48,612 bases of DNA from an uncultured Pelagibacteraceae bacterium. GTDB lineage: Bacteria > Pseudomonadota > Alphaproteobacteria > Pelagibacterales > Pelagibacteraceae. Made by a program: the position numbers and the translations under genes. The notes beneath the pieces are model-generated. The model was given only the letters and a program-made list of their open reading frames with translations, ran no database searches and was not told the origin of the DNA. Location of the stretch: contig CACFKI010000005.1 of assembly GCA_902566785.1 (NCBI GenBank), positions 1 through 48,612 on the forward strand, given 5' to 3'. This document shows, piece after piece, positions 16,535 through 19,788 of this stretch. How positions within the stretch are numbered: the stretch's first letter is position 1; the number at the start of each line of letters is the position of its first letter.

Positions 16535-17016
16535 AATTAAAAGTAAATGACCTTATACCTGAGGCTAATATCTATATTTTAAAAGACGGCGAGCCAAAGG
16601 AGCAAAACATTAAAGAAACCTTGGGAAACAGCAAAGTACTCTTATTTGGATTACCAGGAGCATACACTTCTACATGCTCTAAATTTCATTTACCAGGGTA
16701 TGTAAAAAATGCTGAAAAAATCATAGCAAAAGGAATTGATAAAATATTTTGTATTTCAGTAAATGACCCACACGTAATGAATGCTTGGGGAGAAGCTAAC
16801 AATGTTCGAAATAATATCAAAATGTTAGCTGATCCGTATTTATCATTTACTAAATTAATTGGTGCAGAAATTGACAGAAATTCAAAAGGTATGGGAATTA
16901 GATCTAGTCGTTACGCTATGATTATTGAAAACTTAAAAGTCCAAAATATCCAAGAAGAAGAAGAAACTAAAAGTTGTGGTATTTCCTCAGCAGAGGGAAT
17001 TCTAGATATTATCTGA
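16531..17016 (+). CDS. Peroxiredoxin of the Prx5 type
   Basis: This thiol peroxidase reduces hydrogen peroxide and alkyl hydroperoxides. The 161-residue thioredoxin-fold protein has the peroxidatic Cys49 in LPGAYTSTCSKFHLPG, matching the Prx5 consensus PGAFTxxCSxxHLPG. A second Cys149 near the C-terminus, in SCGISSAEGIL, is where atypical two-Cys Prx5 enzymes place the resolving Cys. The ATGA overlap with thrC implies co-expression. Downstream, from 17023, begins the first repeat of the paralogue region. Confidence 0.92.
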   Translation: MKLKVNDLIPEANIYILKDGEPKEQNIKETLGNSKVLLFGLPGAYTSTCSKFHLPGYVKNAEKIIAKGIDKIFCISVNDPHVMNAWGEANNVRNNIKMLADPYLSFTKLIGAEIDRNSKGMGIRSSRYAMIIENLKVQNIQEEEETKSCGISSAEGILDII

Positions 17017-17022
17017 TTAGAA

Positions 17023-17179
17023 GGGGAGTTCTGTTGCCCGGCATTAGATAAGAAATTAGCATATTTACTCACTTAATTAAACTACTTCATTGCAAACTTC
17101 ATTGTCAGAAAGACTTATTTTCTTTTTAGTTGGTTTTTTTGATCTATTACTTCGTTGTAAGATTGGTTAAACTTATTTT
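17023..17179 (+). promoter_or_regulatory. Duplicated leader, copy 1, upstream of the first M23-like paralogue
   Basis: This 157-base non-coding leader is duplicated at 18690-18845. It opens with GGGGAGTTCTGTTGCCCGGC (17023-17042), a variant of the hairpin repeat that lacks the closing GCCCC arm. It then carries three near-identical copies of ACTTC(G/A)TTGT at 17084-17093 (last base C), 17096-17105 and 17149-17158, a T-rich tract, and TTAAACTTATTTT directly before the ATG. No open frame of note is present and no Shine-Dalgarno is seen. A regulatory leader or a transcription-factor array are both possible. Confidence 0.6.
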
Positions 17180-18070
17180 ATGAAAAGATTATCTCTATAC
17201 GTTTTTCTATTTTTGATGTTTTCTCTTTTTACTTCGCATTCGTTTGCAGCAAAAAAACATAAAATTTATAAAAAACTACCATGTTATTTTAATGGAGTGA
17301 AGGTCGGACCTTCTGCTCAAAAGGACTCTGGTGTTAGAGGTGGCAGATGCTGTGTTGGATGTTCAGCATATAAAGAGAAAAGAGGAACCTCAATGGAGGT
17401 AAGACGTGGAACTCCAGTAGTAGCAATAACTGATATGAAGGTAATAAAAATTGAAGACAGTAGTGCAGAACAAAGATCTACATCATATTTAAAAGATAAG
17501 TATGGGGTGGTTGCAGGTAAAGATCATTTTACAGGGGGAAAAGAACTTATAAAACCATTTGATGCTTTAAGAATTTATTTTTTGGATACTAATGGAAATA
17601 TTATTTTATATTACCACTTACATGAAACTCCTTTGGTTCCAGGTTTTAAGAAAGGCAAGTGTAAAATTCCACTTCAATATGAACAAGGTCGTAAAAAAAT
17701 GAAACCAGAAGATTGTGGAGGATATAGCGAAGACCTTATTAAAAATAACTTTAACGTAAAAAAAGGACAAGTTATTGGCACATCTGGACATGCGTACAAT
17801 CCACATTTTTCACTGGGGATTGCTATACCTGCAGATGAAGGAATTAGAAATTATATTTTAGAGATAAATAAAAATAAAAGCATTGAAGGGACTGAGTATG
17901 GTATGAAAAAAGAATTTTTTGAAAAACCATATCAATTTACAACAAAGTATATGAAATTTACTGCACCACAAAGAGATTTTAAGTGGGAAAATTTACCAAC
18001 AGACTCCGACGCTTACCTGTTTCCTGTTATGTCCAAAAAATATTTAAAAGAAATTGGGTATAACGATTAG
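17180..18070 (+). CDS. Secreted protein with degenerate M23/LytM-like domain, paralogue 1
   Basis: I do not recognise a named family. The 296-residue product begins with a clear signal peptide (residues 1-23, ending SHSFA). The body resembles an M23/LytM peptidase fold: RGTPVVAITDMKV near 75-87, YYHLHETPLVPG near 143-155, and VKKGQVIGTSGHAYNPHFSLGI near 193-214. These match the G-T-P-V-x-A, Y-x-H-L and V-x-x-G-Q-x-I-G...P-H-x-H-F motifs. The HxxxD zinc motif is absent and the HxH is HFS, so peptidase activity is doubtful. Six cysteines suggest disulfides. The first 37 and last 21 residues nearly match the paralogue at 18846-19760, while the middle differs. Confidence 0.8.
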   Translation: MKRLSLYVFLFLMFSLFTSHSFAAKKHKIYKKLPCYFNGVKVGPSAQKDSGVRGGRCCVGCSAYKEKRGTSMEVRRGTPVVAITDMKVIKIEDSSAEQRSTSYLKDKYGVVAGKDHFTGGKELIKPFDALRIYFLDTNGNIILYYHLHETPLVPGFKKGKCKIPLQYEQGRKKMKPEDCGGYSEDLIKNNFNVKKGQVIGTSGHAYNPHFSLGIAIPADEGIRNYILEINKNKSIEGTEYGMKKEFFEKPYQFTTKYMKFTAPQRDFKWENLPTDSDAYLFPVMSKKYLKEIGYND

Positions 18071-18073
18071 AAA

Positions 18074-18098
18074 GGGGCGTTCTGTTGCCAGGTGCCCC
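18074..18098 (+). repeat. G+C-rich hairpin repeat, copy after paralogue 1
   Basis: This 25-base element begins 4 bases after the stop of paralogue 1. It folds as a GGGGCG/TGCCCC stem, an inner CTG/CAG stem and a TTGC loop. An identical copy lies at 19764-19788 and partial ones at 17023 and 18690. No T-run follows on the plus strand, so it is not a textbook terminator in that direction. Confidence 0.8.
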
Positions 18099-18396
18099 GA
18101 ACTTTGTACCATTATTCGCGAATAATTTGAATTAAAAAGTCTGAAATTTGATGAAAATTACGCCACTATTACGTCAAGAGTTTTCTGTTAGCTTTAGATA
18201 TGAAAAAACTTTTAGGGATCGTGGTTCTGGGTTTAATGTGCTATAATTATTAATAATGAAAATAAAACATATATTTAATTTTTGGAAACACTGGAATTGT
18301 AATTTATTTGTTAAACTTCATTATATCCCTATTAAATAAATAATCTCTTTTATTACATTTAACTAATATTCAATTAATTTTAATTAAAGGATTTTT
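18099..18396. other. Spacer with a perfect palindrome and gene remnants
   Basis: This is about 300 bases without an intact gene. It holds the 16-base perfect palindrome ATTATTCGCGAATAAT (18111-18126), a 13-base sequence AAAATTACGCCAC (18154-18166) repeated at 18611-18623, and a short frame at 18200-18253 that looks like a lone signal peptide. A 27-codon frame at 18256-18339 has no recognisable features. The purine run AAAGG at 18386-18390 is the ribosome site of the next gene. The stretch looks like decayed sequence rather than a working element. Confidence 0.5.
18200..18253 (+). pseudogene. Possible truncated signal-peptide gene remnant
   Basis: An ATG frame of 17 codons encodes MKKLLGIVVLGLMCYNY and then stops. 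It has the basic start and hydrophobic core of a signal peptide but no mature protein, so it reads like the 5' end of a secreted-protein gene cut off by a frameshift or deletion. The sequence just before it (from 18154) is partly repeated at 18611-18683, where no frame survives. It could instead be a real small membrane peptide. Confidence 0.4.
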
Positions 18397-18591
18397 ATGA
18401 GTAAAAAAGGATTATTTTATAAATCAATTATTTGGCAAATTATCGGCATGATATGGATATCTTTGTTATCTTATCTATGGTTTGGTAATTGGATTCGATC
18501 ATTAAGTTTCACTAGCGTGGTTGTAGTCGTAAGTATTTTTGCTTATGTTTTGTATGAGTTAGCTTGGGAAAGATTTATGAATAAAAAATAA
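18397..18591 (+). CDS. DUF2061-like small membrane protein
   Basis: This 64-residue protein has two hydrophobic helices (about 10-30 and 36-53) and the pattern KSIIWQIIGM...WFGNW...YELAWERF. It resembles the DUF2061 family, recalled as K-x-x-x-W-R-x-x-x-T...G-x-x...H/YE-x-x-W-x-R; no function is known for it. An AAAGG purine run lies 6 bases before the ATG. The gene sits alone between the two tandem paralogue units, inside otherwise non-coding, partly repetitive DNA, so it may have been inserted or trapped there during the duplication. Confidence 0.65.
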   Translation: MSKKGLFYKSIIWQIIGMIWISLLSYLWFGNWIRSLSFTSVVVVVSIFAYVLYELAWERFMNKK

Positions 18592-18610
18592 ATAAAAAAA
18601 CTTTTAATTA

Positions 18611-18683
18611 AAAATTACGCCACCAGTGCGCCAAAGTGGCATTCTCTTTCTAAACGTGTTGCTATGATTATGTTTTCTAAGAA
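18611..18683. repeat. Decayed copy of the 18154-18253 sequence
   Basis: This segment starts with the same 13 bases AAAATTACGCCAC as 18154-18166. It continues with looser similarity through an inverted repeat, GCCAC (18619-18623) and GTGGC (18636-18640), to an ATG region that no longer encodes a signal peptide. It is probably a second, more decayed copy of the same upstream-plus-signal-peptide cassette. The similarity beyond the first 13 bases is weak by eye. Confidence 0.4.
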
Positions 18684-18689
18684 TAGGTA

Positions 18690-18845
18690 GGGGCGTTCTG
18701 TTGCCCGGCATTAGAATAGAAAGTAGCATATTTGCTTACTTTATCAAACTACTTCGTTGTAAACTTCGTTGTCATATTGACTTATTTTCTTTTTAGTTGG
18801 TTTTTTGATCTAACACTTCGTTGTAAAATTGATTAAACTTATTTT
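18690..18845 (+). promoter_or_regulatory. Duplicated leader, copy 2, upstream of the second M23-like paralogue
   Basis: This 156-base leader matches 17023-17179 almost throughout. It begins GGGGCGTTCTGTTGCCCGGC (18690-18709). Three exact copies of ACTTCGTTGT lie at 18751-18760, 18763-18772 and 18815-18824, with the same 12- and 52/53-base spacing as in copy 1. The T-rich tract TTTTCTTTTTAGTTGG and TTAAACTTATTTT before the ATG are also conserved. Conservation of spacing argues for a functional leader or binding array rather than drift. Confidence 0.6.
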
Positions 18846-19760
18846 ATGAAAAGATTATCTTTATACGTTTTTCTAGTTTTGATGTTTTCTTTGTTTACAT
18901 CACATTCCTTTGCAGCGAAAAAACATAAAATTTATAAAAAATTACCGTGCAGTTTTAATGGAGTGAAAGTTGGACCATCTGCTACTCCTTATGAGGATAA
19001 AAAAATTAGAAGACATAGGTGTGCTCCTGGAAGTTCTGGATATGTAGGAAAAAAAGGAACGTCAATTGAGGCAAGTTCAAATAAGTATAACCCTAAATCA
19101 AGTGGAATCCCTGTGGTAGCAATTACAAATATGACTTTGTACTCTGCAAAGAATTGGGGAGTTGAATATGGTTGCGCAAGTGGTTCGCGGATGGGTGGGG
19201 GAAAAGGACAATGGGGGAATGTAAACATCTTAAATCCTTTATCTGGAAAAAAAGAGCGTTGTAGCAACCCATTTGATAACGTATCACTTTGGTTTACTGA
19301 TGATAAATATGGAAATACTATTAGATATTATCATTTAAAGTCCACAACATTGGTACCAGGTTTTAACAAAGGTAAATGTAAAAAACCTAAATTTGGAAAT
19401 TTTGAGGAAATCCAAAAAAATGATTTTTTAGATCACGCTCAACCAGAAAATTGTGGAGGAATTAAATTTTATAAAGTTAAAAAAGGAGAGGTGATAGGTG
19501 AAATGGGTTATGCTGGAAATTCACATTTTTCTCTAGGTATAGGTTCCAGAAAAACTTCTTCAAATAATAATAATGAAATTAAAGACACAGATGATTGTAA
19601 AGGAATTTACAAACCTTCACATTGTTATGATGTAGGTCCATTATATTTAATTGCACCAGAAGATCGTTTCGAGTGGGAAAACCTTCCAACGGACTCTGAT
19701 GCCTATCTTTTTCCTGTAATGTCTAAGAAATATTTAAAGGAGATTGGTTATTATAATTAA
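18846..19760 (+). CDS. Secreted protein with degenerate M23/LytM-like domain, paralogue 2
   Basis: This is the tandem paralogue of the gene at 17180-18070, with 304 residues and the same 23-residue signal peptide apart from one change (F to V at residue 11). M23-like landmarks are GIPVVAITNMTL near 86-97, RYYHLKSTTLVPG near 158-170, and VKKGEVIGEMGYAGNSHFSLGI near 210-231. As in paralogue 1, the HxxxD site is missing and HxH is HFS. Eight cysteines are present. The Cys in LPC, RC, KGKC and ENCGG are shared, while four others are private. The middle has a copy-specific insertion rich in Gly (GSRMGGGKGQWGN). The function is unknown. Confidence 0.8.
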   Translation: MKRLSLYVFLVLMFSLFTSHSFAAKKHKIYKKLPCSFNGVKVGPSATPYEDKKIRRHRCAPGSSGYVGKKGTSIEASSNKYNPKSSGIPVVAITNMTLYSAKNWGVEYGCASGSRMGGGKGQWGNVNILNPLSGKKERCSNPFDNVSLWFTDDKYGNTIRYYHLKSTTLVPGFNKGKCKKPKFGNFEEIQKNDFLDHAQPENCGGIKFYKVKKGEVIGEMGYAGNSHFSLGIGSRKTSSNNNNEIKDTDDCKGIYKPSHCYDVGPLYLIAPEDRFEWENLPTDSDAYLFPVMSKKYLKEIGYYN

Positions 19761-19763
19761 AAA

Positions 19764-19788
19764 GGGGCGTTCTGTTGCCAGGTGCCCC
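19764..19788 (-). terminator. Hairpin repeat acting as terminator of the rnhA-side operon
   Basis: This is identical to the element at 18074-18098. Read on the minus strand it starts 3 bases after the rnhA stop. It forms a GGGGC/GCCCC stem with an inner CTG/CAG stem capped by a GCAA loop, and is followed at once by TTTTTAATT, a good rho-independent terminator for the long minus-strand run. On the plus strand it follows paralogue 2 but has no T-run. Confidence 0.75.

Follow-up and report, generated by a model that had tools for sequence, protein, structure and literature searches.

Two M23-fold proteins lacking zinc ligands as probable cargo of small mobile units at copies of the tmRNA gene end in SAR11 bacteria

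The M23/LytM peptidase fold without a complete zinc site is known from degenerate proteins such as EnvC, NlpD, DipM, SpoIIQ, and Csd2. Degenerate M23 proteins serve as protein hubs (PMC9662197). Small genes between short repeated sites are also known from several systems. Integrons are arrays of small units in one orientation, stacked beside a fixed anchor, and their varied cargo mostly lacks a family match. The ssrA islands of Dehalococcoides (DsiB) are stacked insertions with direct repeats of the 3' end of ssrA, the gene for transfer-messenger RNA (tmRNA) (PMC3146451). In Acinetobacter, dif (pdif) modules are small gene modules between short sites on which the host Xer recombinase acts in trans (PMC6449649, PMC7399989). 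Here we describe a locus which resembles all of these in part. It lies in a stretch of 48,612 bp from an uncultured Pelagibacteraceae bacterium of the SAR11 group (assembly GCA_902566785.1, contig CACFKI010000005.1, positions 1 to 48,612), hereafter the window. The two genes in question encode the proteins P0001 and P0002. It is likely that these genes are the cargo of two small mobile cassettes, moved at short repeats copied from the tmRNA gene end (cores), and that their products are non-catalytic binding proteins.

Each of the two genes constitutes a unit of ~1.05 kb flanked by directly repeated 16-bp cores (Table 1). The core, GGGGCGTTCTGTTGCC, is a copy of the 3' end of the alphaproteobacterial tmRNA gene; it is the reverse complement of the gene end in the family alpha_tmRNA (RF01849). 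The window contains four copies of the pattern TTCTGTTGCC(A/C)GG, against 0.05 expected. In relatives, intact tmRNA genes have the core among their last ~20 bases. Nine stretches were scanned (L and G numbers are our designations of stretches and genomes). The tmRNA gene is intact at all eight ssrA loci among them, and the ninth, L173, is another locus. An intact tmRNA gene was not seen in the source assembly, which is 78% complete. Other Rfam matches in the region were weak (mir-737 and sroH).

Movement of the cassettes as units is well supported. AG-426-E17 has a near-copy of unit 1 (99.54% identity over 1089 bp) between other genes, in a stretch of 12.9 kb. The other matches of this stretch to the window at an E-value of 1e-5 are only due to paralogy with unit 2. 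Unit 2 is 91.3% identical over 1108 bp to a unit in an ssrA array of AG-325-C03. Eight pairs, each with units of two different genomes, align over 80% or more of both members at 76.6-99.7% identity. In all eight, neither 300-bp flank matches, even with sensitive scoring at an E-value of 1e-3. As a control, 16 units adjoining ssrA were compared with each other, and their right flanks matched in 120 of 120 pairs and their left flanks in 2 of 120. The test thus detects flank homology where it is present, in a case made easy by the strong conservation of ssrA. The BLAST default and the more sensitive scoring agree for the flank tests and for AG-426-E17; the latter adds a short paralogous match between units 1 and 2.

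The same locus was compared among relatives. Both neighbours of the insertion were seen in 24 of 29 relatives, within 60 bp of each other in 21. Two of these 21 closed-up loci hold one core, which is intact in G033 and has up to 3 mismatches in G021. The remaining three relatives show gaps of 411-1130 bp without a core. Two further remnants at this locus were noticed by eye, in L149 and L159.

To describe the units more widely, 62 stretches were collected: 35 by the module at the left end of units, 12 by family members, extra recombinases, or further cores, 14 loci from named genomes (including one from SAR116), and the window. Several of the named stretches are the same contigs as others in the set, and such duplicates are counted in the pair total below. 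There are 169 cores with up to 2 mismatches. All 111 adjacent core pairs up to 4 kb apart are in the same orientation. After the removal of identical copies, 104 units remain, with a median of 764 bp and a range of 195-3449 bp. They contain 165 mechanically called open reading frames (ORFs) of at least 45 amino acids, 111 along the sense of the core and 54 against it, which fall into 107 protein clusters. Since the loci were chosen in favour of units, these figures are descriptive and are not frequencies. A second set, the source genome plus the genomes of the genus that are at least 88% complete (144 in all), was not chosen for units. The core is present with up to 1 mismatch in 139 of these genomes, and the reversed pattern in none. 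Two or more cores are found in 66 genomes, and three or more in 26.

An alignment of 26 copies of the left module shows ~90% conservation in the ~142 bp that follow the core, but not in the 20 bp that precede it. What follows the module varies; many copies share signal-peptide codons, and others are followed by unrelated genes or by a gene on the opposite strand. The module holds three copies of ACTTC(A/G)TTG, and these iterons might be protein-binding sites. It was detected at an E-value of 2e-12 or better in 35 of 399 genomes of the genus. Many units have no left module and show other sequence after the core. An array at another locus, L126:2945-9969 (G028), has the variant core GGGGCGTTCTGTTACCCGGTGCCCC, a shared start of ~44 bp, and proteins with signal-peptide-like N-termini.

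Twenty cargo proteins, most of them large, were selected by hand, and 12 of these showed a Pfam match at an E-value of 0.01, one of which looks like a chance match. They include a PvuRts1I-like SRA endonuclease, NERD plus UvrD helicase, PD-(D/E)XK nucleases, a trypsin-like protease, a methyltransferase, an NMT1-like protein, and an APS kinase. PADLOC made the same assignment for the PvuRts1I-like SRA endonuclease (284.9 bits) and for NERD/UvrD (225.9 bits). The PvuRts1I/SRA-type endonuclease, which acts on modified DNA by its type, is encoded in a unit adjoining ssrA in G247 (L095:1905-3504). Thus, the units can carry defence genes.

We propose the following organization and mechanism. A cassette would consist of one core, a 16-bp copy from within the last ~20 bp of ssrA, often the end module of ~142 bp, and usually one to three short genes. 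The insertion point would be a core, which may be the one ending ssrA or a secondary one like that between the peroxiredoxin-like and the RNase HI-like genes of the window. Cassettes would stack in a single orientation, and ssrA would remain intact. Movement may be catalyzed by a site-specific recombinase supplied in trans, which is favoured because homology stops at the 16-25-bp core. Homologous recombination through the larger shared modules probably adds exchange of the 5' ends. More tentatively, SAR11 may possess a cassette-exchange system of its own that parallels integrons in function, with the 3' end of ssrA as the master site, cassettes marked by cores, Xer perhaps or another recombinase acting in trans, and secreted proteins and defence genes as cargo.

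Compared with integrons, the cores of SAR11 copy the tmRNA 3' end, and no integron integrase was seen in a PF00589 search of 41 genomes. For the 26 copies of the left end module, RNAalifold gave -3.97 kcal/mol and no consensus fold, so that the idea of a structured RNA or an attC-like hairpin was dropped for this module. One third of the census ORFs (54 of 165) are against the core. An earlier study reports no integron signature (attC sites) in SAR11 variable regions (PMC2217521). In Acinetobacter, the pdif sites are Xer sites and occur mainly on plasmids, but also on chromosomes (PMC12907356). Among the matches listed in the open-access literature on SAR11 and Pelagibacter, where a differently worded paper could be missed, we found no account of these units.

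Several observations weigh against the cassettes as proposed. Exactly one core, presumably that of ssrA alone, is present in 73 of the 144 genomes. Core sequences vary, and certain unit ends deviate. Two of the 16 SAR11 members of the protein family (L177 and L180) have no core directly beside the gene, and neither have the SAR116 relative and the caspase-fused relative described below. Searches of viral and phage collections did not find the M23-like protein, and the left module was absent from the viral (searched with one exact pattern), phage, and plasmid collections. No dedicated recombinase was found. Serine recombinases (PF00239) are present in 0 of 42 genomes. Tyrosine recombinases (PF00589) are present in 31 of 41 genomes with 33 matches, of which 31 are of Xer size (open frames of 307-337 amino acids); we take these to be Xer-like. 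There is no core in the ~10-kb stretches around the two larger matches, in a set where some genomes are incomplete. Many genomes are incomplete, and most of the named ones are single-cell assemblies as judged by their names. In G337, which is a single contig of 1.2 Mb, one unit of 2.3 kb adjoins an intact tmRNA gene, indicating that the units are more than an artefact of fragmented single-cell assemblies.

The lack of a dedicated mover in these searches would fit homologous recombination acting alone, with the modules and the signal-peptide and C-terminal codons as homology and the cores as passive hitch-hikers. Homologous exchange of a SAR11 variable region has been proposed, with reference to high recombination rates (PMC2217521). 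In two pairs, L179/L181 and L178/L180, nearly alike mature proteins carry different signal peptides, suggesting that the 5' part has been swapped. On the other hand, homology between unit copies ends at the cores of 16-25 bp, as the eight pairs without flank homology indicate, and many units share only the core, without the left module. A length of 16-25 bp is too short for usual homologous recombination. We therefore consider it unlikely that homologous recombination alone accounts for the units.

It is similarly doubtful that the units are remnants of larger islands, in which integrase-bearing elements inserted repeatedly at ssrA and decayed, leaving genes between direct repeats. Dehalococcoides is known to have stacked islands with direct repeats of ssrA (PMC3146451), and the three iterons of the left module might be arm sites of an integrase. 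However, the units are compact and ORFs fill much of them, and both units of the window recur whole at other loci. No integrase was found near a core in the genomes searched. Unlike the Dehalococcoides islands, the SAR11 units are only ~0.2-3.4 kb long, contain neither an integration module nor a serine recombinase, and in some cases lie away from ssrA.

The two proteins were originally predicted, from the sequence of the window only, as secreted paralogues with an M23/LytM-like fold. Both ORFs are present at the predicted coordinates. P0001 and P0002 are 48% identical over 318 alignment columns, and the source genome has no further match to P0001. They were called tandem; they are indeed adjacent paralogues, but a 64-residue DUF2061 ORF and two repeat boundaries intervene (Table 1). 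The predicted fold is borne out by several lines of evidence. The proposed Pfam check succeeded in part: P0001 matches M23 weakly (E = 2e-5; 25.1 bits, under the cut-off of 28.7) and P0002 does not match. Among seven relatives, P0008 and P0010 are above the cut-off, four are below, and P0004 shows no match. A profile of 15 family members retrieved 14 chains from the PDB, with E-values from 2.4e-5 to 1.1. Thirteen are of M23 type, judged by name (the Csd proteins by title), and the 14th is a phi29 morphogenesis protein. The match covers mainly the second motif region, with a weak first segment of 7.1 bits. A single-sequence phmmer search of the PDB with P0001 found nothing. PHROGs gave no match to P0001 and only weak matches to P0002 (E = 0.0073 and 0.097), and NCBIfam and PADLOC gave none to either protein.

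Structure prediction, which was also proposed, pointed to M23 for both proteins. The AlphaFold2 models are of modest confidence, with a mean predicted local distance difference test score of 66.5 for P0001 and 56.5 for P0002. M23 chains top both Foldseek lists, with weak best E-values of 9.6e-4 (P0001) and 1.3e-2 (P0002). With VIA-align, the P0001 model matches the LytM domain of DipM (Z 11.4, root-mean-square deviation 3.2, 119 residues), and the P0002 model matches StM23 (Z 10.6, root-mean-square deviation 3.4, 115 residues). The best rows outside M23-type proteins reach Z 5.5 and 3.1, respectively.

The window family shares the fold with active M23 peptidases, as far as models of modest confidence indicate, but lacks their zinc motifs H(x)3D and HxH. 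Loss of the zinc ligands had been noticed in both window copies, and it extends to all three ligands in all 15 aligned relatives, which include one SAR116 member. H(x)3D is replaced by KxGTS in 13, KxGTT in 1, and KxGQS in 1, so that Lys and Ser/Thr stand for His and Asp. The second His of HxH is replaced by Ser or Gly (HxS in 13, HFG in 2). In the profile alignment to zoocin, HVGVD is opposite KRGTS in the first segment, and HLH is opposite HIS in the second. Together with dN/dS values (the ratio of nonsynonymous, dN, to synonymous, dS, substitution) of up to 0.68 in 24 of 24 segment comparisons, this agrees with the view that the zinc-less state is old and family-wide and not that of a pseudogene. 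Two histidines that the original prediction did not mention, His146 and His209 (P0001 numbering), are invariant in the 15 relatives. In active M23 enzymes, the first His of HxH and an upstream His are not ligands and are thought to activate water (PMC9662197). With all three ligands lost and both histidines kept, the family has given up its zinc site but retains the remainder of the groove.

The products would be exported, with signal peptides recognized by eye, and their M23 fold would be unable to hold zinc in the usual way. They are most likely non-catalytic binders in the periplasm or at the cell surface. From the fold, the export signal, and the roles of other degenerate LytM proteins, we infer that the old substrate groove with the kept histidines would bind peptidoglycan or a partner enzyme, while the middle part of the protein evolves fast. 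DipM, EnvC, and SpoIIQ are among the structural matches. In contrast to those proteins, the window proteins are single-domain cargo of cassettes with a fast-evolving middle, both non-ligand histidines, and the KxGTS motif, and their family was found in SAR11 and once in SAR116 among the genomes searched. It is quite unlikely that the proteins are still enzymes, with a new site built from Lys67, Ser71, His146, and His209 or with a different metal. Lys67 is invariant in the 15 aligned relatives like the two histidines, whose counterparts are those thought to activate water (PMC9662197), and Ser71 is conserved in 14. Against this stands the loss of the three ligands throughout, and the models are too uncertain for the geometry of a site. 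The caspase-fused P0004 seems, by eye, to have lost both histidines.

The ends of P0001 and P0002 were described as conserved and the middle as divergent, and this is the case: amino acid identity is 96% in the N-terminal, 38% in the middle, and 83% in the C-terminal part. Substitutions were counted by the Nei-Gojobori method on short segments, so that all values are rough. Between the window copies, dN and dS are 0.04 and 0.58 for the first 46 codons, and 0.66 and 0.98 for the middle. For the last 35 codons, dN is 0.13 and dS is saturated, with 16.2 of 20.2 synonymous sites changed. The 24 comparisons above, which follow the proposal to compare central and end segments, come from eight pairs, and two of them have saturated dS. 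Saturated synonymous sites with low dN indicate that the C-terminus is conserved as a protein; judged from these counts, it is under purifying selection. Diversification between constrained ends, as first suggested, fits this pattern. Gene conversion at the ends had been suggested as well. The saturated dS argues against recent conversion at the C-terminus, while exchange seems to occur at the 5' end. There, the likeness of the window genes begins 160 bp upstream of the ATG, in the non-coding module that also precedes unrelated genes. N-terminal dS is below middle dS in five of the eight pairs and above it in three, two of which are L179/L181 and L178/L180. Local tandem duplication of one gene with ends kept alike by conversion, which the long direct repeats at both ends and the lower N-terminal than middle dS would allow, is very improbable and already contradicted, because there was no recent conversion at the C-terminus and because each copy has a relative in another genome and place (99.5% and 91% DNA identity) that is far closer than its paralogue in the window.

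The family is rare. A strong member (E-value of 1e-50 or better) was found in 8 of 399 genomes of the genus. Nine weaker matches in the genus cover only a short part of open frames of ~250-450 amino acids. There was no member at an E-value of 1e-10 in 384 other genomes drawn from the class. Among 14 related loci in named genomes, 13 are from Pelagibacteraceae or Candidatus Pelagibacter and one is from SAR116. Sixteen members come from the window and the Pelagibacteraceae loci. Cores flank nine of them on both sides and five on a single side (one of the five is cut by its contig end), and two have none adjacent. The SAR116 gene, L186:5992-6972 (AG-343-O03), is the sole relative found outside SAR11; no core is nearby, and a GlmS-like gene (by eye) adjoins it. 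P0004, encoded at L123:2977-6822 (G379), has 1281 amino acids. Its N-terminus is degenerate M23-like and matches the family profile (E = 2.4e-53), and its C-terminus is a Peptidase_C14 caspase domain (E = 2.1e-13) with HG and DTCYSG-type motifs by eye. A protein of 309-342 amino acids without a Pfam match adjoins the M23-like gene in L178, L180, and L182, in two gene orders. Polysaccharide lyases (PF14099) are encoded near the M23-like gene in two genomes.

Spread by viruses was considered and rejected, as no relative of the proteins was found in viral contigs or phage records. Eleven viral contigs hold the core. In eight of them (L132, L134-L136, L138-L140, and L142), it lies at the 3' end of a complete, phage-borne tmRNA gene of alpha type, whose neighbours are of myophage nrd type by eye. 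The remaining three contigs lack a tmRNA match and seem unrelated. A 37-base query taken from the repeat gave only chance-level matches to phages.

Table 1. Features of the locus, with positions in the window.
Feature	Position	Strand	Remarks
Left neighbour gene, 161 aa	16531..17016	+	By eye, peroxiredoxin-like; anchors the insertion locus on the left; conserved position next to the 140-aa gene
Unit 1	17014..18102	+	Recurs at 99.54% in AG-426-E17 (L173), other locus
Left module 1	17019..17179	+	Core plus ~142 bp common to units with unrelated cargo; three iterons ACTTC[AG]TTG
Core repeat 1, GGGGAGTTCTGTTGCC	17023..17038	+	One mismatch
Cargo 1, P0001, 296 aa	17180..18070	+	M23 fold without zinc ligands; signal peptide by eye
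alpha_tmRNA match, sub-threshold	18071..18241	-	31 bits (cut-off 50); 3'-end fragment beyond core 2
Core repeat 2	18074..18089	+	Followed by AGGTGCCCC as in the tmRNA gene
DUF2061 membrane protein, 64 aa	18397..18591	+	Middle unit
Unit 2	18682..19788	+	Recurs at 91.3% in AG-325-C03 (L182), ssrA array
Left module 2	18689..18845	+	88% identical to module 1
Core repeat 3	18690..18705	+	
Cargo 2, P0002, 304 aa	18846..19760	+	M23 fold without zinc ligands; signal peptide by eye
Core repeat 4	19764..19779	+	Adjoins the 3' end of the right neighbour
Right neighbour gene, 140 aa	19791..20213	-	By eye, RNase HI-like; anchors the locus on the right

SAR11 bacteria, which are known for their streamlined genomes, rank among the most abundant bacterial groups. 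If the cassette interpretation is true, a compact cassette system would be a concrete route of gene gain and loss in such genomes. The cassettes would account for many short secreted proteins that lack a known function, and the missing recombinase would become a testable question. As for the proteins, a family without any zinc ligand that still has both water-activating histidines would be a clean case for learning what the groove of a degenerate LytM domain binds.

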